NCBI RefSeq assembly: GCF_014656095.1
Contig: NZ_BNBT01000025.1
Location: 1-64,000, forward strand
Reading direction: 5' to 3'
Origin: Streptomyces longispororuber
GTDB lineage: Bacteria > Actinomycetota > Actinomycetes > Streptomycetales > Streptomycetaceae
DNA length: 64,000 nt
Shown here one piece after another: positions 29,067 through 41,388 of this stretch (its first letter is position 1; every line of letters begins with the position of its first letter). Made by a program: the position numbers and the translations under genes. Under the pieces are notes generated by a model. That model searched no databases and was not told where the DNA came from. It saw only the letters and a program-made list of their open reading frames with translations.

Positions 29067-29879
29067 CTAGCGGTACACCTTGCCCGGCTCCGCCTTGCCG
29101 GGCGCGAGGAGCTGGGGCACGGTGACGAAGACGTAGCCGCGCTTCTTCAGGTCCGCGATGATGCCGGGCACGGCCGGCACGGTGCCCTTGTAGATGTCGT
29201 GCAGCAGGATGATGCCGTCGCGGCTCGACTGCTCCAGGACCCGCTTGCGTATCAGCGCGGAGTCGTTGGTCGTGTAGTCCTTCGCCGTCACCGTCCACAG
29301 GATCTCGGCCAGACCGAGATCGCGGGAGATCTTGTTGACGGTGTCGTTCGTGCGGCCCTGCGGCGGGCGCATCAGCGTGGGCTTCTTGCCGATGAGCTTC
29401 TCGATCGCCTCGTTCGGGCGCTGGAGCTCCTTGCGCGCCTCCGCCGGGTCCAGCTTCGTCAGGATCTTGTGCGACCAGGTGTGGCTGGCGACCTCGTGCC
29501 CCTCGCGGTCCATCTGCTTCACGAGCTCGGGGTACTTCACGATGTGGTTCCTGCCGAGCGTGAAGAAGGTCGCGGGCACCTTCTCCTCCTTGAGGATGCG
29601 CAGCAGGCGCGGGGTGTTCTCGCTGGGGCCCGCGTCGAAGGTCAGCGCGATGCACTTGGCCTTGCGGCAGTCGACCGTGCCGAACGCCCCCGCGTCCTTC
29701 CCCTTCGCGCCCGCGGCGTCCTTGCGGACCGTGCTCGGCGAGACGGTGTCGAGGCTCGTGCACCCGGTGAGGGCGAGGGGCGCCGTCAGGCCCAGGGCGA
29801 GCGCGGCGGCGCCGAGGAGGGGGCGGCGCGGGCGCAACCTCTTCCCCGGGTTCTTCATCTTGGCAGTGGGACGACGCAT
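29067..29879 (-). CDS. Polysaccharide deacetylase family lipoprotein (NodB-like)
   Basis: 270 residues. A basic leader and hydrophobic segment end in a lipobox (APLALTGC), so it is probably lipid-anchored outside the membrane. The NodB domain has motif 1 as LTFDAGPSENTP, motif 2 as HTWSH and a later DGIILLHDIY. In motif 1 the second Asp, normally a metal ligand (TFDDG), is Ala, as I recall for some other actinobacterial members, so metal binding may differ. The likely substrate is an N-acetylated cell-wall or extracellular polysaccharide. Start chosen at 29879; ATGs at 29858 and 29894 are possible because no clear ribosome site exists. Confidence 0.85.
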   Translation of the reverse strand: MRRPTAKMKNPGKRLRPRRPLLGAAALALGLTAPLALTGCTSLDTVSPSTVRKDAAGAKGKDAGAFGTVDCRKAKCIALTFDAGPSENTPRLLRILKEEKVPATFFTLGRNHIVKYPELVKQMDREGHEVASHTWSHKILTKLDPAEARKELQRPNEAIEKLIGKKPTLMRPPQGRTNDTVNKISRDLGLAEILWTVTAKDYTTNDSALIRKRVLEQSSRDGIILLHDIYKGTVPAVPGIIADLKKRGYVFVTVPQLLAPGKAEPGKVYR

Positions 29880-29887
29880 GCGGGCAC

Positions 29888-29904
29888 TATACATGTCGTG
29901 TATA
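29888..29904 (-). promoter_or_regulatory. AT-rich inverted repeat at the 5' end of the deacetylase gene
   Basis: TATACA-TGTCG-TGTATA (6-bp arms) is striking in this GC context and overlaps the likely start region of the deacetylase. It could be a repressor operator or a core promoter. No regulator is assigned. Confidence 0.5.
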
Positions 29905-30130
29905 CGCCCTGTTCATAGTGGTCCGGCGGTCCCGTGGGCGGCGCCGGGCCGTCTCGAACGGGTGGTCGGACCGTCGCGGTGCATGAGGCGGCAGGGGCCG
30001 ATGGGCTCACTGGGAGTGGCCGGGAGTCGGCGCAATCTCCTCTATCGGAATGGCCGGATCACACCCCAGCATGGCGAGTTGCCTGTGGCCTCGCCAGGGG
30101 GCCCCGGGTGTACGAAACGGGGGAACGACC

Positions 30131-30907
30131 ATGCCAGGGACAAGACTGTCATCAGCCATGCCCGCACGCGGGCCGGGGGCGCCGCGACGTGCGACACCCC
30201 GCGACGAGGAGCCTCCACCGCCGGACCGGCGAGCATCCCTCCAGCAGGGCCGGGGCGTGCTCGCCGGAGCCTTCGCCCTGCTGGAGGCGTTGCGCCGGCG
30301 CGGCGGCGAGGCGAGCCTGACCGAACTCGCCCTCGCCTGCGCCCTGCCCAAGGGCAGCGCCCACCGCCTCCTCGACCAGCTCGGGCTGCTCGGCGCCGTG
30401 GAGCGCCGCGGCAACCGCTACGCCGTCGGGCCGCAGCTCTTCCGCCTCGGCCAGGCCTGGGACCCGCACCCGGGGCTGCGGGCCGCCGCGCGCATCCCGC
30501 TGCACCGGCTGCGCGCCTCGACCGGGGCCAGCGTCGTCCTCACCGTGCTGCGCGACGAACTCGCCCTCACGGTCGCCTCGGTGCCGGGCCGCGTCGAGGG
30601 CCTCGTCCCGGTCCGCAACGGCATGAGCTTCCCGCTGGACACCGCCGCGGGGCGCGTCTTCACCGACGGGCCCCGCGGCCCGGTCCTGGACCGCGAACAG
30701 GTGCAGGAGGGCGTGTCCTGCGTCGCCATGCCCGTGCGGGCGCCGGACGGGCGCACCGTCGCCGCCCTCGCGGCCGTGGTGCCCGCGAGCCAGCGGCTCG
30801 CCCAGGTGTCGGCGGCCACGGCCGCCGCGGCGGCCGCCGCCGAGGCGCGCCTCGCGCGCATGCCGCCGCGCGAACTCGCCGGGCGCCCGACGGTGCTCCT
30901 GTACTGA
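30131..30907 (+). CDS. IclR-family transcriptional regulator
   Basis: 258 residues. A winged helix-turn-helix at about residues 40-95 (GVLAGAFALLEALRRRGGEA, then LTELALACALPKGSAHRLLDQL) is followed by an IclR effector domain to the end (ARIPLHRLRASTGASVVLTVL, GRVFTDGPRG). The effector domain is somewhat short and lacks the usual C-terminal extension. The ATG at 30131 is preceded by GGGGGA with good spacing. It precedes the lanthipeptide operon on the same strand but is separated from it by a very strong hairpin, so it is not cotranscribed; it might still regulate the operon. Confidence 0.85.
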   Translation: MPGTRLSSAMPARGPGAPRRATPRDEEPPPPDRRASLQQGRGVLAGAFALLEALRRRGGEASLTELALACALPKGSAHRLLDQLGLLGAVERRGNRYAVGPQLFRLGQAWDPHPGLRAAARIPLHRLRASTGASVVLTVLRDELALTVASVPGRVEGLVPVRNGMSFPLDTAAGRVFTDGPRGPVLDREQVQEGVSCVAMPVRAPDGRTVAALAAVVPASQRLAQVSAATAAAAAAAEARLARMPPRELAGRPTVLLY

Positions 30908-31112: not shown

Positions 31113-32177
31113 ATGTACGGTGCCGAAGGTCCGGAGATCATCATCTGGGACATCACGTACGCGTGTCCCCTCCGCTGCGTCCACTGCTATTCCGAATCCG
31201 GCCGGCGGCCCTCGCGGCAATTGCGCTCCCCGGCGGACGCTCTGCGCGTCGCGGACGCCTTCCTCGCGCTGAAGCCGCGGGTGGTCTCCCTCGCGGGCGG
31301 TGAGCCGCTGCTCGTCAAGAACCTCCTGGACATCGCCCGGAAGCTGACCGACGCCTCCGTCTCCACCTGCCTGTACACCAGCGGCTGGCTCTTCGACGAG
31401 GCGCTGCCCGACCGGCTCGCCGAGGTCTTCGGCCAGATCACCGTCAGCGTCGACGGGGCGCGCAAGGCCACGCACGACCTCGTCCGCGGCCGGGCCGGAT
31501 CCTTCGACCGGGCCCTGACGGCACTGGGCCACCTCGACGCGGCGGCCGCGCGCCGCGCCGCGGCCGGCGACAAGCCGCTGAATTTCACCGTGGAATACGT
31601 GGTCCTGCGCAGCAACTTCGGCGAGCTGGAGGATTTCGTACGCCTCATGGCCGAAAGGTTCCCGCGGCTGACGAGTATCACCTTCAACGCGGCCGCGCCC
31701 GCCGGACTCGGCAGCGGCATCGAATTCGGCGAGACGGAACTGCTGTTCGACGACCAGATGGAACTGCTGGTCTCGCCGGAATTCCGGGAACGCCTCCAGA
31801 GCGCCGCGGGCGCCGGTATCCGGGTGTACACCACCGACAATCTCGGTCTCGTCAGGCCGCCGGACCCGCGCCTGCCGCGCGACGGCTCCCACGTCATGCA
31901 GGTCGAGCCCGACGGCGAGGTCCGCTGGATGCCCGTGTACGAGGGTTCCGTCGGCAACCTGCTGCACGACGACCCGCACGCCGTCTGGGCGCGCGCCAAG
32001 GAGCGCTGGCTCGACCCGGGCGTCCTGGAGACGCTCGAACCGGTGCGGACCGTGCGCCAGTGGGCCCACGCGGTCCGGGAGCTCAACGACCGCTTCGCCG
32101 CCGACGCCGACCGGGAGCGGCTCGCACGCCGCAAGGCGCCGGTGCCGGTCGCCCTCTCGGCCAGGCCGTCCCGATGA
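31113..32177 (+). CDS. Radical SAM enzyme, MftC/PqqE-like, lacking SPASM cysteines
   Basis: 354 residues. The radical SAM motif is CPLRCVHCYSESGRRPSRQL near the N-terminus (CxxxCxxC binds the SAM-cleaving 4Fe-4S cluster), followed by the glycine motif SLAGGEPLL. The sequence resembles peptide-modifying enzymes such as MftC and PqqE. The C-terminal region keeps the SPASM-like layout (QVEPDGEVRWMPVYEGSVGNLL), but the expected Cys before xxxxxGN is Met and no cysteine cluster follows, so auxiliary Fe-S clusters are unlikely. It is the first gene of the lanthipeptide operon, and its stop overlaps LanKC1 as ATGA. Its substrate is probably the precursor at 34810. Confidence 0.88.
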   Translation: MYGAEGPEIIIWDITYACPLRCVHCYSESGRRPSRQLRSPADALRVADAFLALKPRVVSLAGGEPLLVKNLLDIARKLTDASVSTCLYTSGWLFDEALPDRLAEVFGQITVSVDGARKATHDLVRGRAGSFDRALTALGHLDAAAARRAAAGDKPLNFTVEYVVLRSNFGELEDFVRLMAERFPRLTSITFNAAAPAGLGSGIEFGETELLFDDQMELLVSPEFRERLQSAAGAGIRVYTTDNLGLVRPPDPRLPRDGSHVMQVEPDGEVRWMPVYEGSVGNLLHDDPHAVWARAKERWLDPGVLETLEPVRTVRQWAHAVRELNDRFAADADRERLARRKAPVPVALSARPSR

Positions 32178-34813
32178 CCTCGGCGGCCACACCCCCGGCG
32201 GCCTCTCCCGAGGCGGGTCCCCCCGCGGCGACACCACCCGCCGCCACGCCACCGCCCCCCTCGGCCCAGGCGCCCGCCACCGCCCCGGCGTCGCCGATGA
32301 TGACGCCCGAGGACTTCCACCGCTTCTGCCTCGCCGACCCCGTCTTCTTCGAGCGCCCCGAGCTGCTCGCCGACGACGCCGAGCGGTTCACGGCCACGCA
32401 CCTCCCGCCGCCGCCCGGCTGGCGGCGCACCGAGTCGGACTGGTGGGTGCGGCTGCGGCCCGCGGGCCCGGCGCTGCCCGCGGCGGGCTGGCTCGTGCAC
32501 GTCTCCGTCGGCCCCGCCGACCTGGAGAAGACCGTCGAGATCGTCCGGGGCCACTGCGTCGAGCACGGGGTGCCCTTCGACTTCGTCCGCAGCACCACCA
32601 CCGCCCGCGAGGTCAACGGCGACCGCGCGGACCGCTTCGGCTGCGGCCGCCTGATCACGGTGTACGCCGTCGACGACGCCGTCCTGACCAGGACGCTCAC
32701 CGACCTGCACGCGCTCCTGCACGGCATGAGCGGCCCCGGCGTCCTCGGCGCCCTCGCCCACCGCGACGGACCGCTGCACGTCCGCCACGGCCCGTACGAC
32801 GACCGCGCCCGCCCCGGCGGTGCCGTCTTCACCCCGCCGCGGGACCGGCCCCTGCCGCCCGTCCTCGCCGAGGACCTCGCGGCCCGGCGCGCCGCCCCCG
32901 TCGGTGACTTCCCGTACCGGGTCCGACGCGCCCTGCGGCTCGGCTGCGGCGGCGGCACCTACCTGGCCGACGCCAGAGGCGGGCGCACCGTCGTCCTCAA
33001 GGAGGCCCGGCCCGGCGCCGGCCTCGACCCCGGCGGCACCGACGCCGTCGCCCGGCTCGCCCGGGAGGAGGAGAACCTCCGGCACCTCGAAGGCCTGCCG
33101 TGCGTCCCGGCGGTGGGACCCCACCGCATCGCCTCCGGGCACCACTTCCTGGAGGTCGAGCACGTCGAGGGCACCAACCTGTTCGCCGAGAGCCTCCGCC
33201 TGCCCCTGACGGGCCCGGCCGCGTACGCCCGGCGGGAAGCCCCGCGCCACGCCCGGTGGGCCCACCGCGTCCTGGGCCGCCTTGCCCAGGCCCTGGACGC
33301 CGTCCGCGCACGCGGCCTGCGCCTCGGCGAGCTGAAGCCGCACAACGTCGTCCTGCGCCCGGACGGCGGCGTCGTGCTCGTCGACCTCGCCTCCGCGACC
33401 GCCCTGGACGACACCCGCCCGCCCGCGCACGGCGACCCCGCCTTCACCGTGCCCCCGGGCCTGACCGCCGCCCAGGCGCACGCCTACCTGCTGGCCTGCG
33501 TCCGCGTGGCGCTGCTGCTGCCCGTCGACCACCACGACCCGGTCAAGGTGCCCACCGTCGTCTCCGCGATCGCCCGCCACTACCCGCTGCCGCCCGGACA
33601 GGGGGACCAGATGCTCGCCGCGCTCCTTCCGCACGGCAGGCCGCGACGGCCCGACACCGCGGGCGAGTTGTTCGCCGCCGAGCCGTTCGACTGGCCGCTC
33701 GTCCGCGACGCGCTCGTCCGGGGCATCCACCTCTCCGCCACGCCCGAGCGCGCCGACCGGCTCTTCCCCGGTACGCCCACCGGGCCGCGGGCCCTCGGCG
33801 GCGCCTCGTTCGGGTACGGCGCGGCCGGGGTGCTGTACGCCCTGCACCAGGCGGGCGCGGAGGTCCCCGAGGAGTACGCGCGCTGGCTCGTCGACGCCGC
33901 CCGCGCCGTGGCGAACCCGCCGCCCGGCCTCTACGACGGCCTGCACGGCGTCGCGTACACCCTCGACGTGCTCGGCCACCGGGACGAGGCGCTCGCCCTG
34001 CTCGGCCGCTGCCCCGCCGCCCCGGAGGCAGACCTGGTCGGCGGGCGCGCCGGGATCGCCCTGAACCTGCTGCACTTCGCCGCCGCCACGGGCGACCAGC
34101 GCCACGCCGACGAGGCGCTGCGCCTGGCCGGGACGCTCGACGCCCAGGCGCCGCCGCCCGCGCGCCCCGACCGGTACGAACCCGTCGGCCTGCTGCACGG
34201 CCCGACGGGCGCCGCCCTCCTGCACTGCCGGCTGCACGAGCTGACCGGCGACGAGGGCCACCTCGACCGGGCCGAGCGCCACCTGGCGCACGACCTCGCC
34301 CGCTGCGTGACCGCGCCCGACGGCGGAGTCCACCTGCGGCACTCCACCACGATGCTGCCCTATCTGCACGGCGGGAGCTGGGGCCTGGCCGCCGTCCTGC
34401 CGTACCTGCTGCGCCACCGCCCGGACGCCGGACGCGCGGCGCTCCTCGCCGGGGTGTACCGCACCTGCGGCTCCGTGTACGTGCGCTTCCCCGGGCTGCT
34501 GCGGGGCCGCGCGGGCGCCGTCGCCACCCTGGCGGCGGCACAGCGCGACCCGGGCCGCGCGGCGCCGGACCGCGCCGCGCACCGCCGGGCGCTGGAGGCG
34601 CAGATCCGCCTGCTGGCCTGGCACGCCCGCACCTGGCGGGGGGCGCTCGCCTTCCCCGGGCTGCGGATGCCCCGCCTCTCCATGGACCTGGCCACCGGTT
34701 CCGCCGGTGTCCTGCTCGCCCTGGCCGCGGCGTTCGACGGGGCGACGGCCCTGCCGCACCTCCAGCCGCGGTCGGCCGCCCGACCGGACAGACGAAAGGA
34801 GGTGAACCCATGA
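32174..34813 (+). CDS. Class III lanthionine synthetase LanKC1, probable pseudoenzyme
   Basis: 879 residues in LanKC order: Pro/Ala-rich leader (1-42), lyase domain (about 43-230), kinase-like domain (about 245-480) and LanC-like cyclase with seven G-rich repeats (about 525-860). Several catalytic residues kept in LanKC2 are changed. The lyase lysines become D136 (FDFVR instead of FKFLR) and R159, with only H109 kept. The kinase catalytic Asp becomes E386 (GELKPHN), although K276, N391 and D404 remain. It may therefore bind nucleotide or leader peptide without full catalysis. The 5' end overlaps the radical SAM stop, and its last codons hold the ribosome site of the precursor gene. Confidence 0.88.
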   Translation: MTSAATPPAASPEAGPPAATPPAATPPPPSAQAPATAPASPMMTPEDFHRFCLADPVFFERPELLADDAERFTATHLPPPPGWRRTESDWWVRLRPAGPALPAAGWLVHVSVGPADLEKTVEIVRGHCVEHGVPFDFVRSTTTAREVNGDRADRFGCGRLITVYAVDDAVLTRTLTDLHALLHGMSGPGVLGALAHRDGPLHVRHGPYDDRARPGGAVFTPPRDRPLPPVLAEDLAARRAAPVGDFPYRVRRALRLGCGGGTYLADARGGRTVVLKEARPGAGLDPGGTDAVARLAREEENLRHLEGLPCVPAVGPHRIASGHHFLEVEHVEGTNLFAESLRLPLTGPAAYARREAPRHARWAHRVLGRLAQALDAVRARGLRLGELKPHNVVLRPDGGVVLVDLASATALDDTRPPAHGDPAFTVPPGLTAAQAHAYLLACVRVALLLPVDHHDPVKVPTVVSAIARHYPLPPGQGDQMLAALLPHGRPRRPDTAGELFAAEPFDWPLVRDALVRGIHLSATPERADRLFPGTPTGPRALGGASFGYGAAGVLYALHQAGAEVPEEYARWLVDAARAVANPPPGLYDGLHGVAYTLDVLGHRDEALALLGRCPAAPEADLVGGRAGIALNLLHFAAATGDQRHADEALRLAGTLDAQAPPPARPDRYEPVGLLHGPTGAALLHCRLHELTGDEGHLDRAERHLAHDLARCVTAPDGGVHLRHSTTMLPYLHGGSWGLAAVLPYLLRHRPDAGRAALLAGVYRTCGSVYVRFPGLLRGRAGAVATLAAAQRDPGRAAPDRAAHRRALEAQIRLLAWHARTWRGALAFPGLRMPRLSMDLATGSAGVLLALAAAFDGATALPHLQPRSAARPDRRKEVNP
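34794..34805 (+). promoter_or_regulatory. Perfect Shine-Dalgarno sequence for the precursor peptide
   Basis: GAAAGGAGGTGA is a 12-base match to the anti-SD end of 16S rRNA, four bases before the ATG at 34810, and is embedded in the last codons of LanKC1. It predicts much stronger translation of the precursor than of the enzymes. Confidence 0.85.
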
Positions 34814-34908
34814 CCGACATCCTCGAACTCCAGGAGCTGGAGGAGGACACCCTGTCGCTGTGGCCTTGCAACTCCGGCAGCAGCGCGAGTGGTTTCGCGT
34901 TCCTCTGA
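34810..34908 (+). CDS. Class III lanthipeptide precursor (labyrinthopeptin-like leader, single-Cys core)
   Basis: 32 codons; the start overlaps the LanKC1 stop (ATGA). Residues 4-11 are ILELQELE, the class III leader motif also found in labyrinthopeptin leaders (ILELQ[ND]L/ILELQDLE, from memory). The likely core, from about residue 14, contains SLWPC (16-20), then N-S-G-S-S-A-S and the end SGFAFL. The only cysteine is C20. S16 with C20 has the SxxxC spacing of a lanthionine ring, as in SapB, but the SxxS part needed for labionin is missing (T14 and S16 are one residue apart). Compared with labyrinthopeptin A2 (SLWECC...SLFACC), the other Cys positions are replaced. Too short for routine gene callers. 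Confidence 0.88.
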   Translation: MTDILELQELEEDTLSLWPCNSGSSASGFAFL

Positions 34909-34931
34909 GCGCCACGGCGCCGCTGAGAAGA

Positions 34932-34979
34932 GGGGTCGGGCGGCCGACGGCGATGCCCTGGCCGCGACCGCCCGGCCCC
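34932..34979 (+). terminator. 12-bp hairpin between the precursor gene and LanKC2
   Basis: GGGGTCGGGCGG (34932-34943) pairs with CCGCCCGGCCCC (34968-34979) with a single G-T pair. The 24-base loop can form a further CGGC/GCCG stem. It is placed like the partial terminators that raise the precursor-to-enzyme mRNA ratio in RiPP operons. Confidence 0.65.
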
Positions 34980-35006
34980 GGGCCACGGAAGGAAGTGCAC
35001 CGCCCC

Positions 35007-37712
35007 ATGAGCCATCCGGACGCCACCCCGATGGACGCCACCCCGACGGACGCCACCCCGACGGACGCCGTCCCGCCGGTCGCCGCCCCGGCCGAGGCCC
35101 CGCTGTTCGCCGACGGGCCGGAGCACCTCGACGACGACAGGACGTGGTTCGCCCGCACCCGCGCCCCCGCGCCGGACGGCTGGGACCGCCTCGACAAGGG
35201 CACCTGGGTCAACCTCAGGCCCACCGGCGCCCGGCTGCCCCGGCAGGGCTGGAAGGTGCACGCCTCGGCGACCCTGGCCGACGCCGAGCGGGTCGTCGAC
35301 ACCGTCTGGGAGTACTGCGTCGCGCACGGCATCGCGTTCAAGTTCCTGCGCGGCACGGCGATCCTCCACCAGGTCGACGGCAAGCCCGCGCCCCGCTCCT
35401 CCGGCGGCAAGCTCGTCACCCTCTACCCGGCCGACGAGACCGTGCTCGACCTCACCCTCAAGGAGCTGTCCCCGCTCCTGCACGGCGTCCGGGGGCCGTA
35501 CGTCCTCAACGACCTGCGCTGGGGCGGGGGACCGCTGTTCGTGCGCTACGGCGCCTTCGAGGAGCGCTACTGCTTCTCGCCGGAGGGCGCGTACGTGGCC
35601 GCCGTGGAGCGGCCCGACGGCGTACTCGTCCCGGACACGCGCGGCGCCTCCTTCCAGGTGCCCGACTGGGTGGAGGTCCCGGCGTCCGTCCAGGAGCAGA
35701 TCGACGCCGCCCGGGCCGAACGCGCGGGCGCCTTCCCGTTCCGCGTCGAGAAGGTCCTCCGCTTCAGCAACGGCGGCGGGGTCTACCGCGCGGTGGAACG
35801 CGACACGGGCCGCACGGTCGTGCTGCGCGAGGCCCGCCCGCACGCCGGCCTCGACCTGCACGGCGCCGACGCCGTCGCCCGGCTCGTCCGCGAGCACGCG
35901 ACGCTGGTGCGCCTGGACGGCCTCGGCGGCCGCGCCCCGAAGGCGTACGGGCGCCTGCGCCACTGGGAACACCACTACCTCGTCGAGGAGTTCGTCGAGG
36001 GCGAGCCGCTGCACGAGGCCGTCGGCCGCCGCCACCCGCTGCTGCGCCCGGGCCCCACCGAGGACGAGATCGCCGCCTACGCCGCCTGGGCGCACACCAC
36101 GTACACGCGCATCGAGGAGGCCCTGGCCGCCCTGCACGCGCGCGGCGTCGCCCTCGGCGACCTCAAGCCCGGCAACGTCATGGTCCGCCCCGACGGCTCG
36201 GTCTGCCTCGTGGACTTCGAGACCGCCCACGACGTCCGCGGGACCGGCGCCCGGCCCGCCCTGGCCACCGAGGGGTTCAGCGCCCCCTGGGCCCCCACGG
36301 GCGTGGCCGCCGACGAGTACGCCCTGGCCTGCGTCCGGCTCGCGCTGTACCTGCCGCTGACGGAGCTGCTGCGGTTCGCGCCCGGCGGCTCGCACGACCC
36401 CGGTGACCCGGGCAAGCACCGCCAGCTCGTCGCGGCGGCCGCGCGCCGCTTCCCGGTCCCCGACGACTTCGCCCCCGCCCTGTTGCGCCGCCTCACACCC
36501 CCGCCGACCGCGCGGACGCCGTACACAGGGGAGACGCCGTACACAGGGGACACGGGCGACACGTCGTACGCGGACACCCCGTACGACGACATCCCGTACG
36601 ACGACATCCCGCACGCGGGGACACCGGACGTGCGGGCACGCGGCTGGGGCGAGGGCGGCGACCGGGACGCCCTCCTCGACGGTCTGCGCGACGCCATCAC
36701 CGCCAGTGCGACACCCGACCGGGAGGACCGGCTCTTCCCGGGCGACGTGCGGCAGTTCGACCACCAGGGCGCCGCGTTCGCGTTCGGCGCGGCCGGGGTG
36801 CTGCACGCCCTGCACCGCACCGGCCGCGCCGACCACCCCGGCTTCGCGGAGCACACCGCCTGGCTCGTCCGGGCCGCCCGCCGCACCCGGTGGCCGCGCC
36901 CCGGCCTGTACGACGGCGTGGCCGGTGTCGCCTACGTCCTCGACGAACTCGGCCTGCGCGCCGAGGCCCACGAGGCCCTGGACCGGCTCGACGCCTTCGA
37001 CCCGCACCGCTGCGGCTCCGGGCTCTTCGGCGGCCTCGCGGGCATCGGCCTCACCCTGCTGCACTTCGCCGCCGACGGGCGCGACAGCGGCACCGGCCGG
37101 GCGGTCGCCCTCGGCCGTGAACTGGTCCACCGGCTCGGCGCCGACCCGGGCACCCCCGGCCTGCTGCACGGCTGGTCGGGCCCGGCCCTGTTCTTCATCC
37201 GCCTGGCCACGGCCACGGGTGACCCGTCCTGGCTGCGGCACGCCGAAACAGCCCTGGCCCGGGACCTCGGCCGGCTGGGCGTCCCCCGCGGGAACCGCCT
37301 CCAGGCGCGCACCGGACCGCGCTGGGACACCGCCCTCGGCCACGGCAGCGCGGGCATCGGCCTCGCCCTCGACGCGTACCTGCGCGTCCGCGACGACCCG
37401 CACCTGGCCGGGGTCCGCGACCGCGTCCGGGACGGCCTCGACACCGAACTCCTCTTGAACGCGGGCCTGTTGAACGGCCAGGCGGGCGTCCTGCTCGCCT
37501 GCGCCCACCTCGGCGCGCCCACCGCGACGCACCTGAGGTCCCTCGGCCTGCACGCCGTGCGCTACCGCAGGCACCCCGCGTTCGCCCTCGACGGCCGGCT
37601 GCGCCTGTCGATGGACCTCGCCACCGGCACGGCGGGCGTCCTGCTCGCCGCCCACGCCGCGCACACCGGCGTCACGGCCCACGCGCTGCCCTTCCTCACC
37701 ATCGGCCCGTGA
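35007..37712 (+). CDS. Class III lanthionine synthetase LanKC2
   Basis: 901 residues: repeat-rich leader (DATPxDATPT), lyase domain (about 30-230), kinase domain (about 245-490), repeat-rich linker and LanC-like cyclase (about 575-895, ending LRLSMDLATGTAGVLLA). Lyase residues look intact (H85, K112 in FKFLR, K135), as do the kinase catalytic Asp and metal ligands (D385 in GDLKPGN, N390, D403). The ATP-binding lysine position is Arg (R274 in VLREARP, where LanKC1 has VLKEARP). It should phosphorylate Ser/Thr of the precursor, eliminate phosphate and cyclise. The ATG at 35007 follows GGAAGGA at a long 12-13-base spacing. The stop overlaps the exporter start (GTGA). Confidence 0.92.
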   Translation: MSHPDATPMDATPTDATPTDAVPPVAAPAEAPLFADGPEHLDDDRTWFARTRAPAPDGWDRLDKGTWVNLRPTGARLPRQGWKVHASATLADAERVVDTVWEYCVAHGIAFKFLRGTAILHQVDGKPAPRSSGGKLVTLYPADETVLDLTLKELSPLLHGVRGPYVLNDLRWGGGPLFVRYGAFEERYCFSPEGAYVAAVERPDGVLVPDTRGASFQVPDWVEVPASVQEQIDAARAERAGAFPFRVEKVLRFSNGGGVYRAVERDTGRTVVLREARPHAGLDLHGADAVARLVREHATLVRLDGLGGRAPKAYGRLRHWEHHYLVEEFVEGEPLHEAVGRRHPLLRPGPTEDEIAAYAAWAHTTYTRIEEALAALHARGVALGDLKPGNVMVRPDGSVCLVDFETAHDVRGTGARPALATEGFSAPWAPTGVAADEYALACVRLALYLPLTELLRFAPGGSHDPGDPGKHRQLVAAAARRFPVPDDFAPALLRRLTPPPTARTPYTGETPYTGDTGDTSYADTPYDDIPYDDIPHAGTPDVRARGWGEGGDRDALLDGLRDAITASATPDREDRLFPGDVRQFDHQGAAFAFGAAGVLHALHRTGRADHPGFAEHTAWLVRAARRTRWPRPGLYDGVAGVAYVLDELGLRAEAHEALDRLDAFDPHRCGSGLFGGLAGIGLTLLHFAADGRDSGTGRAVALGRELVHRLGADPGTPGLLHGWSGPALFFIRLATATGDPSWLRHAETALARDLGRLGVPRGNRLQARTGPRWDTALGHGSAGIGLALDAYLRVRDDPHLAGVRDRVRDGLDTELLLNAGLLNGQAGVLLACAHLGAPTATHLRSLGLHAVRYRRHPAFALDGRLRLSMDLATGTAGVLLAAHAAHTGVTAHALPFLTIGP
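36521..36630 (+). repeat. In-frame repeats in the LanKC2 kinase-cyclase linker
   Basis: Direct repeats around ACGCCGTACACAGGGGA and GTACGACGACATCCC encode TPYTG- and PYDDI-type repeats. They lengthen the linker between the kinase and cyclase domains without frameshift. Confidence 0.65.
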
Positions 37713-38938
37713 CCACCGCCGGGGCCCCGAAAACGCGCCACCGCCTGCTGCGCAACCGCGACTTCCAGCTCCTGGTGTGGGGGCAGGGCCTGTCCGCGCT
37801 CGGCACCGGCGCCGCCGCGCTCACCCTGCCGCTGCTCGTCCTCGCGGAGACCGGGTCGCCGCTGCGCGTGGGCCTGGTGGAGGCGGTGTGGACGGGCGCC
37901 GTCGCCGTGGCGTGCCTGGCGGCGGGCACCCTCGCCGACCGCTTCGACCGGCGCGCCCTCATGCTGTGGTGCGAGTACGGCCGCGTGGCCGTCAGCGCCG
38001 CCTTCGCGGCCGCCGTCGCCCTCGGCCACACCACCCTGCCCGTCCTCTTCGGCGCCGGGGTGCTGCTCGGGCTGCTCACCGCGCCGTTCAGCACGGCCGG
38101 GCTCGCCTCGCTGCCCAAGCTCGTCCCCGCGGACCGGCTCGCCGCCGCGCTCGCCGTCACCCGGGTGCGCGGCCAGCTCGCCGCGCTGCTCGGGCCCCTC
38201 GCGGGCGGCGCCCTGTTCGCCGTCGGGCGGAGCCTGCCGTTCTGGCTGAACGCCGCCTCGTTCCTCGTCTCCGCGGCCACCGTGCACGCCCTGCGCACCC
38301 CGCTCGACGCCGCCGAACGGGCCGAACCGCGCTGGTGGGCGGCGTTCCGCGACGGCGTCCGCTTCCTCTGGCGCGACCAGGTGCTGCGCCGCCTCACCCT
38401 CATCGCCTCCGCGCAGGCCTTCGCCGTCGACGGCATCGCCCTCACCGTCGTCGTGGTCAGCCGCGAGCACGGCACCTCCGGCCTCACCATCGGCCTGCTG
38501 TACGACTGCTGGGCCGCCGGGGCGCTCGCCGGGGCACTGCTCGCGCCGCGCCTCGTCGACCGGGTCCCGTACCGCACCGTGCTCCTGGCGAGCGGCGCGG
38601 TGTGCTCGCTCGTGGTGCCGCCGATGGCGCTCAGCGCGGCCCCGGCCGCCCTCGCCCCGCTGCTCGCCGTGTGCGCGACCGCCGTCGCCGCGTCCGGCTC
38701 CGTCATGACGTACGCCCAGGTCGTGCGCACCCCCGACACCTTGCAGGGCCGCGTGCACAGCGGCATCGCGCTGCTGCTGCTCGCGGCGCCCCCGCTCGGC
38801 TCGGCGCTCGCGGGCCTGCTCCTCGAACGGCTCCCGGACGCGGTGCCCTACCTCGCCTTCGGCGGGCTGCTCCTGCTGCTCACCCTGGCCACGTCGCAGA
38901 TGCCGCCGACGTCGACGGTCTCGCCGCGCCCGGCGTAG
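37709..38938 (+). CDS. MFS exporter of the lanthipeptide operon
   Basis: 409 residues with about twelve membrane helices. The loop between helices 2 and 3 carries the MFS signature as AGTLADRFDRRALML. It is closest in style to EntS-like MFS_3 exporters. The GTG start overlaps the LanKC2 stop, which ties it to the operon and suggests export of, or immunity to, the modified peptide. Characterised class III clusters I recall mostly use ABC transporters, so an MFS pump is less usual. The last 91 bases overlap the 3' end of the carboxypeptidase gene on the other strand. Confidence 0.9.
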   Translation: MTTAGAPKTRHRLLRNRDFQLLVWGQGLSALGTGAAALTLPLLVLAETGSPLRVGLVEAVWTGAVAVACLAAGTLADRFDRRALMLWCEYGRVAVSAAFAAAVALGHTTLPVLFGAGVLLGLLTAPFSTAGLASLPKLVPADRLAAALAVTRVRGQLAALLGPLAGGALFAVGRSLPFWLNAASFLVSAATVHALRTPLDAAERAEPRWWAAFRDGVRFLWRDQVLRRLTLIASAQAFAVDGIALTVVVVSREHGTSGLTIGLLYDCWAAGALAGALLAPRLVDRVPYRTVLLASGAVCSLVVPPMALSAAPAALAPLLAVCATAVAASGSVMTYAQVVRTPDTLQGRVHSGIALLLLAAPPLGSALAGLLLERLPDAVPYLAFGGLLLLLTLATSQMPPTSTVSPRPA

Positions 38939-41388
38939 ACCTCCGTGATCCCGACGGTCCGGCCCCGTGGCGAGACGCACGAGAGCTGGTAGGCCTCCTT
39001 CTCGCCGTACGTGGTCGGCACCGGCGAGGCGAAGTCGACGCGCCCCCTCCAGTCGTCGACGGCGGCGGGGTCGGCCTGCGCGACGTTGACGAGGACCGCG
39101 CGGTAGGTGCCGGGGGGCGGGTCGAACAGCACGGCGCGGGCCGACGTCTCGCCACTGGTGTCCGAGGCGACGGGCGCCCCGGAGGCGTCGTACACGTACA
39201 GGTCCCAGTGCGTGCGGGGCGAGCCCCACGAGACGGCGACCGCCATCCTGCCGTTGTCCGCCTCCGGCGGCCCGGCGACCCGGAACGTGAAGCTCTCCGC
39301 GGCCGGGTCCGCCGGGTAGTCCTCGTTGACCGGCGGCACGCCCGGCGGGTTGACCACCGCGATGCCTGCCTGCGGCGGCCCCTGCGGGTCGCGGCCCAGG
39401 CGCCCGGCGACGTACGGCCGCGTGGACGGGTTGACCGCCCACCGGAACCGCCCGCCGGGCGCGGTGAGCGACGAGCGGAGGTCGTCCCGCACGGACAGCG
39501 GCGGCTTCGTCGAACCGTCCGGCTGGAGCACCGGCGAGGTCGGCGTGCGGAACGTCTTGCGCAGCGCCAGCCGGTGGCCCGCGGGCGCCCGCCCGGTCAG
39601 CGTCGCGTGCGTGGCCGGGTCGGCGGCGTGCCCGAGCACGGCGAGCAGCGCCCCGCGGTTGCCGCCCCTGCCCGCCCCGGGCGCCGGGGGCAGCCCCGCG
39701 TACTCGGCGACCACGGACCGCGCGTACGGCCCGTGGAAGCCGGGGCCCGCGAGCTCCACCGTGAACCCCCAGCCGCCGGTCGCCCAGTACGACCAGTCCT
39801 CCGTGGAGCCGGTGTTGTCGTAGAGCTGCCAGCTCGGCCGCGACGGGTAGCCCGTACGGGCGGCGAGCACGTCGCCCAGGGCCCGGTACGCGGGCTCGTC
39901 CAGCGGCGGCCGGGTGTCGGCGAGGCCGGGCGGGCGCAGCACCACGGCGGCCGGGGTGTGCAGCGTGGTCAGGTTCGTCACCTGGCGGGACGACACGAGG
40001 GCCCGGACGTTGCGCACCTCGGGCTCGCTGAACGGGGCGGGCCCCCGGTAGGTGTCGCCGTTCCAGTCGAGCCCGGCGCCGGGGCCGCCCCAGAAGCCGC
40101 CGTAGTTGCGGTTGGGGTCGGTGCCGCGCTCGCGGCCCGCCGGGTTGGCCTTGCAGACACCGGTCGCGTACGCGGGCGGTGAGTCCCGCAGGCTGCAGTT
40201 CTTCCGCTTCATCTCGTAGTCGAAGCGGCTGTGGTCGCCCCTCGGCTCCGCCTCGCGCGAGACCGCGAACCCGTCCGGGTTGACCACGGGCACCACCACG
40301 CTGCGCACCCGCGCGACCAGCCCCTTGACGGGCCCGCGCCGCCGGAGCAGGTCGTACGCCCACTCCAGGGCGACCTCGCCGCTCGGCCACTCGCGGGCGT
40401 GGTGCAGCCCCAGGGTGAGGTTCACCGGCCTGCCGTCGTCCGCGCGCCGGACGCCGGCGGCGATCTCCAGAGCGACGACGTCCCGGCCCTCCCGGGTCGG
40501 CTCGGGCAGCGTGAACGCCCGGGCCAGGCGGGGGTGCCGGCGGGCCAGCTCCTTCATCTCGTACTCGTAGTCGTACAGGTGCCGGTAGGCGGTACGCCCC
40601 GACGGCAGTGGGGACGTCGCGGTGCGCGCGGCGTACGCCCGGTCCGCCCGCGCGTCCCGCAGCGCGCGGCGCGCCAGGTCCGGCTCCACCACCCGCCAGG
40701 TGAACCCGGCCCGGGCCAGCGCCGTCCGCTCGGCCGCCCCGGACAGGACGACGTCGAGCCCGCGCGCGTCGCCCCCGCCGGTGACGTCGAAGCCGAGCCG
40801 GGCGAGCCGGTCGCGGTCGGCGCGGCCCGGGGCGTGGACGCGGACGAGCTGGGGCGGCGTACTCGCGCGCGGCCCGGCCGGTCCCGGCGCACGCGAGGGC
40901 CCCACGGCCCCCGCGAGGAAGTCGAGGCCCAGGCGCGCCTCCCGGGCCGCCCCGCCGTACCGGCACCCCTGCACCACGAGCCGCTGCCCGCGCCGCACGA
41001 AGCCCTCGGCGAGCTCCCGCGAGCGCGGCGCGGCCGAGGCGGCGACGACCCGGCCGGTGCCCCGGTCGAAGACCGCCACGTCCCAGTCGCCGCCGGGCCG
41101 GTGCCCGCCGCGCCCCCGCCCGGGGAACAGCCGGGCCTGCACGATCCCGTCCACCCGGGCGGTGACCTCCCGCCGGTCGGCGCCCGCGGCCCCCTCGGGC
41201 AGCAACCGCCCGAAGCAGGGCCGCGCCACGGCCCGCTCGGCCCGCAGCACCTCCGCCGGGGCGGCCCGCGCGGCACCCTTGGACGGCACGGCGAGCACCG
41301 CCCCCACGACCACCAGCACCGCCCCCGCGGCAACGCCCCCGCGCACCCCGCGTCCGCCCGCGCCCGGACCCCCCACGCTGCCCACCAC
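38848..41388 (-). CDS. Secreted M14-family zinc carboxypeptidase
   Basis: 846 residues. An N-terminal basic and hydrophobic export signal (GGVAAGAVLVVVGAVLAV) is followed by a propeptide-like part, the M14 domain (about 270-600) and a C-terminal beta-sandwich, possibly a proprotein-convertase-P-like domain. Zinc ligands HxxE are in LGLHHAREWPSGE, the third His in TLHTPAAVVL and the catalytic Glu in WGFTVELAGPGFHG. It is expected to cleave C-terminal residues outside the cell. The start is uncertain (two GTGs right after an in-frame stop). Its 3' end overlaps the MFS gene by 91 bases, tail to tail. It might trim the lanthipeptide or simply be a neighbour. Confidence 0.9.
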   Translation of the reverse strand: MVGSVGGPGAGGRGVRGGVAAGAVLVVVGAVLAVPSKGAARAAPAEVLRAERAVARPCFGRLLPEGAAGADRREVTARVDGIVQARLFPGRGRGGHRPGGDWDVAVFDRGTGRVVAASAAPRSRELAEGFVRRGQRLVVQGCRYGGAAREARLGLDFLAGAVGPSRAPGPAGPRASTPPQLVRVHAPGRADRDRLARLGFDVTGGGDARGLDVVLSGAAERTALARAGFTWRVVEPDLARRALRDARADRAYAARTATSPLPSGRTAYRHLYDYEYEMKELARRHPRLARAFTLPEPTREGRDVVALEIAAGVRRADDGRPVNLTLGLHHAREWPSGEVALEWAYDLLRRRGPVKGLVARVRSVVVPVVNPDGFAVSREAEPRGDHSRFDYEMKRKNCSLRDSPPAYATGVCKANPAGRERGTDPNRNYGGFWGGPGAGLDWNGDTYRGPAPFSEPEVRNVRALVSSRQVTNLTTLHTPAAVVLRPPGLADTRPPLDEPAYRALGDVLAARTGYPSRPSWQLYDNTGSTEDWSYWATGGWGFTVELAGPGFHGPYARSVVAEYAGLPPAPGAGRGGNRGALLAVLGHAADPATHATLTGRAPAGHRLALRKTFRTPTSPVLQPDGSTKPPLSVRDDLRSSLTAPGGRFRWAVNPSTRPYVAGRLGRDPQGPPQAGIAVVNPPGVPPVNEDYPADPAAESFTFRVAGPPEADNGRMAVAVSWGSPRTHWDLYVYDASGAPVASDTSGETSARAVLFDPPPGTYRAVLVNVAQADPAAVDDWRGRVDFASPVPTTYGEKEAYQLSCVSPRGRTVGITEVYAGRGETVDVGGICDVARVSSRSSPPKAR

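Follow-up and report, generated by a model that had tools for sequence, protein, structure and literature searches.

The operon described here occupies positions 31113-38938 of a 64,000-nucleotide stretch of Streptomyces longispororuber DNA (contig NZ_BNBT01000025.1, positions 1 to 64,000 of the forward strand), referred to below as the window. It encodes a radical S-adenosylmethionine (SAM) enzyme, two LanKC-type synthetases (LanKC1 and LanKC2, hereafter KC1 and KC2), a short precursor peptide and a predicted exporter. An initial annotation, made from the sequence letters, had read this as a class III lanthipeptide system with a radical SAM enzyme, two LanKCs and a one-Cys precursor, and that reading stands on the genes themselves and on matches to PF04055 and NF038151. 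The genes and sites concerned are as follows.

31113-32177, + strand: radical SAM gene, 354 residues, with a single CX3CX2C site and a SPASM-like tail without Cys (PF04055)
31164-31187, + strand: CPLRCVHC, the [4Fe-4S]/SAM motif (C18, C22, C25), holding the only three Cys invariant in 76 of 76 aligned family members
32174-34813, + strand: KC1, a paralogue of class III synthetases in which the catalytic residues of lyase and kinase are replaced and the cyclase domain is kept (NF038151)
32492-32494, + strand: KC1 Leu107 at the lyase Lys site equivalent to ThurKC K65 (residue tables; K65A, PMC10604976)
32579-32581, + strand: KC1 Asp136 at the lyase Lys site equivalent to ThurKC K94 (residue tables; K94A, same source)
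33329-33331, + strand: KC1 Glu386 at the kinase catalytic Asp site (residue tables)
34810-34908, + strand: precursor of 32 residues, MTDILELQELEEDTLSLWPCNSGSSASGFAFL, with an ILELQ leader and one Cys (read directly)
34861-34869, + strand: Trp18-Pro19-Cys20, the proposed radical SAM target; Trp-Pro-Cys is present in 29 of 29 precursors from loci with both KC1 and KC2 (dual loci)
34879-34890, + strand: Ser24-x-x-Ser27, a Ser pair C-terminal to Cys20; C-x(2,3)-S-x-x-[ST] is present in the same 29 of 29
34909-35006, + strand: spacer separating precursor and KC2, rich in GC and with a hairpin, a weak signal (minimum free energy -54.9 kcal/mol)
35007-37712, + strand: KC2, a class III synthetase with lyase and kinase residues intact (NF038151)
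37709-38938, + strand: predicted MFS exporter with a GTG start (PF07690/PF05977, MFS_1)

A conserved five-gene operon

The genes are tightly packed. ATGA overlaps join the radical SAM gene to KC1 (32174-32177) and KC1 to the precursor (34810-34813), and a GTGA overlap joins KC2 to the exporter gene. Between precursor and KC2 there is no overlap; the 98 bases that separate them have a predicted hairpin that is weakly better than shuffled sequence (z -1.78; 8 of 200 shuffles equally good). Both synthetases pass the class III model NF038151 (cut-off 575), KC1 with 675 bits and KC2 with 874 bits.

The five-gene operon is real and conserved. In the genus, 392 genomes were scanned, that of the window among them (five candidates scored per genome). 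The radical SAM gene was found at E ≤ 1e-40 in 20 genomes at 22 places, and the order radical SAM-KC1-precursor-KC2 recurs at nine of the 21 places outside the window. A single scan of GTDB contigs, with the best 80 of 108 relatives kept, gave 77 named radical SAM loci. KC1 and KC2 lie downstream of the enzyme in 17 of these; L056, a dual locus truncated by a contig end, stands outside the 17. The genus and named sets have seven dual loci in common and together give 20 distinct ones, the window included. Such recurrence of the gene order indicates that the set found in the window is not due to chance.

Fifteen of the 17 named dual-locus relatives are from Streptomyces. Dual loci also occur in Actinophytocola xanthii (L052), with identities to the window of 70% for the radical SAM enzyme, 61% for KC1, 59% for KC2 and 65% for the MFS protein, and in Streptosporangium nondiastaticum (L066). 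An MFS homologue follows KC2 in 10 of the 17 named dual loci. A profile built from 12 KC1s and run over the 392 genus genomes, with two candidates scored per genome, matched ten places at 1234-1452 bits, the next match scoring 920, and these ten are the radical-SAM-linked dual loci.

An aromatic-Pro-Cys motif accompanies the radical SAM enzyme

Relatives of the radical SAM enzyme adjoin three kinds of synthetase, namely dual LanKC, single LanKC (class III) and LanL-type (class IV). At 52 of the 77 loci seeded by this enzyme, the precursors carry Trp, Tyr, Phe or His followed by Pro-Cys. All 17 dual loci have this motif, as do 12 of 13 single-LanKC loci and 22 of 29 LanL loci, two of the seven misses lying at contig ends; among the remaining loci it occurs at 1 of 15 with no synthetase in the analysed stretch, at neither of two distant archaeal loci and not at the one truncated dual locus. 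Counted over untruncated loci, the motif is present at 29 of 30 in class III and at 22 of 27 in class IV. It takes the form WPC in dual loci, HPC, AWPC or AFPC with a single LanKC, and LYPC, LWPC, LFPC, KFPC or RYPC with LanL. Leaders and ring residues differ among the three precursor families; aromatic-Pro-Cys is common to all of them.

When the residue before Pro-Cys was left free, a filter that misses many HPC peptides, 45 of 48 precursor-like open reading frames (ORFs) had Trp (28), Tyr (9), Phe (6) or His (2) at that place, and the other three look like chance ORFs. Among ORFs bearing a ribosome-binding site, the motif was present in 73 of 2114 on the strand of the radical SAM gene, some of the 73 being chance ORFs, versus 14 of 2249 on the opposite strand.

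Recognised precursors of control loci without the enzyme lack the motif. The controls were the 60 best-scoring such loci (30 LanKC, 30 LanL), in which about 1.5 kb around the synthetase gave no radical SAM match at 1e-10, taken from lists for which two candidates were scored per genome. None of the 59 recognised precursors at these 60 loci had the motif, and two unrelated Arg-rich ORFs matched it by chance. A further 40 loci of middle and low rank in the LanL list, counted partly by eye, included three with the enzyme (places already present in the genus scan), and all three had the motif. Of the 37 without it, two hold an unrelated ORF with the motif and several show no recognised precursor; the motif was absent from all 15 of these loci whose leaders resemble, by eye, those linked to the enzyme. 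Fisher tests gave p = 5e-16 for 29 of 30 loci versus 0 of 30 LanKC control loci and 1.6e-7 for a second comparison, values that count related genomes as independent and depend on hand-picked, non-random controls and on tallies made partly by eye.

There are exceptions. Two loci with the enzyme and LanL, L092 (AWPEP) and L096 (AWPPT), keep aromatic-Pro without Cys, and G299 and G168 encode similar peptides, SWPPP and AYPPT, with no radical SAM gene close by, although both genomes have one elsewhere. Searches of small ORFs for a precursor were empty at L054, L075, L080, L093, L094, L102, L110, L113-L117 and L119-L126.

Taken together, the comparison supports well the view that the enzyme acts on the aromatic-Pro-Cys motif, which in the window would be Trp18-Pro19-Cys20. 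That it resides in these clusters and leaves the peptide untouched appears highly unlikely. Such a bystander would fit the 15 of 77 loci where the analysed stretch gave no match to LanKC or LanL, six of them from Microvirga, but the enzyme is tied to the motif across three precursor families, and a paired loss of enzyme and aromatic residue, described below for the genome G188, argues against it as well.

Several loci show individual features. In two species of Actinoplanes, L082 and L083 have one intact LanKC and precursors ending in AWPCFSYITTFDCP and AFPCWSYLTTFDCL, with a Trp/Phe swap at the motif. The class IV loci L072 and L095 hold four consecutive LWPC precursors between LanL and the radical SAM gene. 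The Microvirga loci L116, L117 and L119-L122 contain relatives of the enzyme at 38-41% identity and conserved small ORFs nearby; neither LanKC nor LanL was matched in the analysed stretch.

Natural loss of the enzyme

G188, a draft genome 99% complete, contains an HPC-type cluster whose LanKC is 57-64% identical over its main piece to those of relatives and whose neighbours resemble the P450-like genes of HPC clusters. The radical SAM gene was found neither beside this cluster nor elsewhere in the genome, the best match to the family profile scoring 57.7 bits versus 463-531 bits in three genomes that bear the enzyme. Its precursor reads Ala-Pro-Cys where relatives have His-Pro-Cys, so that Pro and Cys are kept and the aromatic residue is gone. 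This paired loss, a single case, points at the aromatic residue as the site of the radical SAM enzyme. The loci L259 (G188) and L241 have an HPC-type LanKC cluster, no radical SAM enzyme of the family in the genome, and Ala-Pro-Cys in place of His-Pro-Cys.

Homologous loci without the radical SAM gene had been named in the initial annotation as evidence that would count against it. For the KC1 clade the expectation is borne out, with all ten places (392 genomes, two candidates each) linked to the enzyme; it does not extend to the single-LanKC cluster of G188, which lacks the enzyme and has a changed motif.

The radical SAM enzyme

A PF04055 match of 67.8 bits, the CX3CX2C site and the radical SAM fold place the window protein in the superfamily. 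The enzyme has a single cluster motif, and C18, C22 and C25 are the only Cys invariant among the 76 aligned family proteins. The tail (EPDGxVR...YEGxVGN) resembles a SPASM segment and contains no Cys; assignment as a SPASM-type peptide enzyme was rejected, the C-terminal region of the 76 proteins having no conserved auxiliary-cluster Cys.

The AlphaFold model has a mean predicted local distance difference test score (pLDDT) of 76 and a predicted template modelling score (pTM) of 0.78, with pLDDT below 50 for residues 17-33 around the Cys motif. Its nearest fold in Foldseek is the sactipeptide maturase SkfB (6efn; E 4e-12, Z 20.2), with SuiB, DesII, PqqE and viperins close behind, a spread that fixes no particular reaction. 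There is a sizeable, though minority, chance that the enzyme acts on aromatic-Pro-Cys by chemistry other than the cyclophane link favoured below, such as epimerisation at the aromatic position, bond formation to Pro or a thioether with Cys20. Besides the range of folds, headed by a sactipeptide maturase, L092 and L096 speak for this, as they keep aromatic-Pro without Cys at i+2. G188, by contrast, retains Pro and Cys and loses the aromatic residue, which suggests that the aromatic side chain itself matters. Known peptide epimerases use a conserved Cys as hydrogen donor, and the 76 proteins share none beyond those of the cluster motif, which argues against epimerisation.

Two LanKC synthetases

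The two synthetases differ at their catalytic sites, a point that the initial annotation had overlooked. All 17 KC1 copies compared (16 named plus the window) have other residues at the equivalents of ThurKC K65, K94 and D152 and of the kinase catalytic Asp, whereas the same four sites are kept in 18 of 18 KC2s and 13 of 13 single LanKCs. The KC1s of L031 and L037 likewise lack both lyase lysines and the kinase Asp, giving 19 of 19 readable copies; KC1 of L061 (S. lilacinus) matches in three pieces and was left out of the residue counts. The window KC1 has Leu107, Asp136, Ala193 and Glu386 at these sites, and the window KC2 is intact (K83, K112, D169, D385, D403). In ThurKC, K65A and R163A gave no turnover, K94A gave unmodified peptide only and D152A mostly unmodified peptide (PMC10604976). 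On these residues KC1 looks catalytically dead as a dehydratase, and KC2 appears intact.

Of the alignment columns that 43 other LanKCs conserve to 90% or more, KC1 has lost 16 of 60 in the lyase domain versus 5 in KC2, 23 versus 6 of 84 in the kinase domain, and 15 versus 16 of 100 in the cyclase domain. The losses of KC1 are thus concentrated in its dehydratase half; the cyclase halves of KC1 and KC2 are unusual to the same degree. A description of KC1 as a dedicated cyclase was dropped as an established fact because the two cyclase domains are equally diverged. In ThurKC, dehydration requires the cyclase domain even when it is unlinked (PMC10604976), which makes a non-catalytic helper role for KC1 plausible.

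Decay of KC1 into a duplicate without a role seems distinctly unlikely. Several of its dehydratase residues are lost, the L061 copy is in pieces, a single LanKC suffices at Actinoplanes and HPC-type loci, and at L094 a KC2-type gene stands without KC1. Against decay, KC1 is a long open frame with conserved cyclase motifs in 19 of 20 dual loci, its start and stop overlap neighbouring genes in the window, and ThurKC requires its cyclase domain, even unlinked, for dehydration. In a quick tree KC1s also form one clade across families, grouping with the single LanKCs of HPC and Actinoplanes loci and not with KC2.

Two further observations concern KC2. Positions 36500-36640 of the window encode a low-complexity linker, PYTGDTGDTSYADTPYDDIPYDDIP, between its kinase and cyclase domains. 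In Streptomyces orinoci (L094), a radical SAM gene and a KC2-type LanKC are present, and KC1 and a precursor were not found.

Precursor peptides

The 20 dual loci encode 29 precursors (26 distinct; some loci carry two), each with a single Cys. Additional multi-Cys precursors at homologous loci, which the initial annotation had also named as counting against it, therefore did not appear. Trp-Pro-Cys and the downstream Ser/Thr pair, C-x(2,3)-S-x-x-[ST], are invariant in the 29, and the canonical labionin order [ST]xx[ST]x2-5C occurs in none of them. The window core had been said to lack SxxS; it holds it twice, as S22xxS25 and S24xxS27, both C-terminal to C20. Judged from these sequences, the Ser pair is on the unusual side of Cys relative to the labionin motif. 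Upstream of C20 the window has T14 and S16. A Ser or Thr is present at C-4 (S16 in the window) in 18 of 29 precursors and at C-6 in 26 of 29, the latter count being compatible with a ring N-terminal to Cys. The window precursor has an LxLQ-type leader, ILELQ, and scores 17.5 bits with the precursor model NF038154, under its cut-off of 22.

The initial annotation had proposed a labyrinthopeptin-like peptide with an S16-C20 lanthionine, in which a radical SAM modification replaces the lost rings. This proposal is unlikely. In its favour are the shared letters SLWxC, the ILELQ leader, and T14 and S16 upstream of C20 with the frequent Ser/Thr at C-6. The tie to labyrinthopeptin is nevertheless weak, LELQ leaders being general for class III (PMC10206099), and close kinship was ruled out by the absence of the canonical labionin order from all 29 precursors. 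With Ser/Thr at C-4 in 18 of them, an S16-C20 ring is weak as a general product. Precursors linked to the enzyme in class IV keep several Cys, so that the enzyme does not appear to be simply a substitute for lost rings; the part of the claim concerning replacement is unproven, and comparison across loci points instead to aromatic-Pro-Cys as its site, a motif that multi-Cys precursors of class IV have too.

Proposed pathway

The operon probably encodes a class III lanthipeptide pathway with radical SAM tailoring and a synthetase function split over two proteins, in which KC2 would dehydrate, KC1 would help and the radical SAM enzyme would modify aromatic-Pro-Cys. The ILELQ leader may dock the precursor on KC2 and possibly on KC1. 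KC2, by analogy with its family, would phosphorylate core Ser/Thr and eliminate to dehydroalanine or dehydrobutyrine, with KC1 acting as a non-dehydrating partner in leader binding or cyclisation. The radical SAM enzyme would modify the aromatic residue of Trp18-Pro19-Cys20; our best guess is a link from the aromatic side chain to residue i+2, as in three-residue cyclophanes. This link is favoured because in such cyclophanes the residue joined to i+2 is given as one of the same four aromatics, Trp, Tyr, Phe or His (PMC11002830). Cys20 may then add to a downstream dehydroalanine (S22-S27), giving a ring opposite to the usual Ser-to-Cys order. The leader would be cut by a protease encoded outside the operon and the product would presumably, by analogy with the family, be exported by the MFS pump.

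Several points weigh against this pathway. G188 is the single natural loss of the enzyme seen, and at 14 radical SAM loci without a synthetase in the analysed stretch, as well as at L075, L094, L113 and L124, no such precursor was found. In 13 of 17 KC1 copies the kinase Asp has become Glu, and the window KC1 retains the Asn and DFG-type Asp of the kinase, which together leave the lyase more surely dead than the kinase. The cyclase domain is as diverged in KC1 as in KC2, the LanKC tree is a quick LG+G4 tree with long-branch warnings, and scoring two candidates per genome leaves room for KC1-like genes without a radical SAM neighbour. The triceptide enzymes described in PMC11002830 are SPASM proteins, while no conserved tail Cys is present here, which counts against an oxidative crosslink, a reaction that needs an electron acceptor.

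A broader reading is more tentative, and we regard it as rather doubtful. It would unite class III and class IV loci in a super-group in which a single-cluster radical SAM enzyme makes a strained link on aromatic (Trp/Tyr/Phe/His)-Pro-Cys before or after lanthionine formation, the LanKC function is split between an active KC2 and a dehydratase-dead KC1, and the sole Cys closes a ring or inverted labionin onto a C-terminal Ser.

The motif offers a testable substrate rule for a radical SAM family adjoining two lanthipeptide classes, for which no assigned reaction was found in the open-access PubMed Central literature searched. The class III synthetases come as a conserved pair, one live and one seemingly dead, and offer a natural system in which to study the role of the non-catalytic parts of LanKC, and the Cys-before-Ser layout falls outside the usual labionin motif. 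If confirmed, the proposed pathway would add a branch to a natural-product family that is already known.

Genes around the operon

A regulator gene lies upstream of the operon.

30050-30907, + strand: IclR-type regulator, a possible cluster regulator outside the operon proper (PF09339/PF01614)

IclR homologues (43-51% identity) lie near the radical SAM loci L047, L049, L097, L101 and L126. Downstream, at 38848-41388, is an M14 carboxypeptidase gene; M14 carboxypeptidases 62-67% identical over the main part directly follow LanL in the radical SAM loci L075 and L092. The IclR and M14 genes were ruled out as general cluster genes, being present among dual loci only in the sister locus L031. That locus also keeps the upstream cytochrome P450 (27738-29024, + strand) and polysaccharide deacetylase (29067-29894, - strand), at 80% and 85%, and among the other dual loci only L066 has a distant P450 (30%). 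In the HPC-type class III clusters L073, L074, L079, L085, L087-L090, L099, L045 and L046, P450-like genes with 29-36% identity to the window P450 flank LanKC and the radical SAM gene.

A search for a plasmid home of the window gave no match at 1e-40. The genome has at least two LanKC matches, two candidates being scored per genome.

Comparison with known systems

The occurrence of PF04055 proteins in lanthipeptide clusters, where they may add modifications, has been noted (Walker et al. 2020, PMC7268733); the available part of that paper does not describe this radical SAM family, the motif, the paired LanKCs or the product. In the open-access PubMed Central literature (closed journals lying outside the scope of the search), no description was found of this family alongside LanKC or LanL, nor of the motif or a LanKC pair with one live and one dead member.

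Among NCBIfam models, the window enzyme best matches that of MftC (TIGR03962), over residues 2-183. At 98 bits against a cut-off of 265, and with no conserved SPASM Cys, membership was rejected, and the label MftC-like given in the initial annotation has to be withdrawn.

Triceptides resemble the present precursors in having Trp, Phe, Tyr or His, the four aromatics also seen here, at position i and a partner residue at i+2 (PMC11002830), an arrangement of aromatic and partner found in the precursors of 52 of the 77 radical SAM loci. Their enzymes are described as containing SPASM domains and as mined by other routes (PMC11002830); here there is no conserved tail Cys, Pro is fixed at i+1 and Cys is usual at i+2.

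Noursin (NorA/NorKC) is likewise a class III product with one Cys, and its leader is similar, the family model NF050143 reaching 19 bits over window residues 1-12. As the cut-off is 40, close kinship was rejected. In noursin, NorKC makes a labionin over residues 3, 7 and 15 and a His-butyrine link (PMC10206099, available part). The same part of that paper names no radical SAM enzyme in the noursin cluster, whereas the window operon has one.

With class III systems in general (SapB/AmfS, labyrinthopeptin, andalusicin/ThurKC), the operon shares the LanKC fold, an NF038151 score, an LxLQ-type leader and intact dehydratase residues in KC2, so that at least one LanKC has both lyase and kinase residues in place. 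It differs from them in the lack of a canonical labionin motif, in a Cys that precedes the Ser pair, in having two LanKCs, one with replaced dehydratase residues, and in the radical SAM enzyme encoded within the operon.

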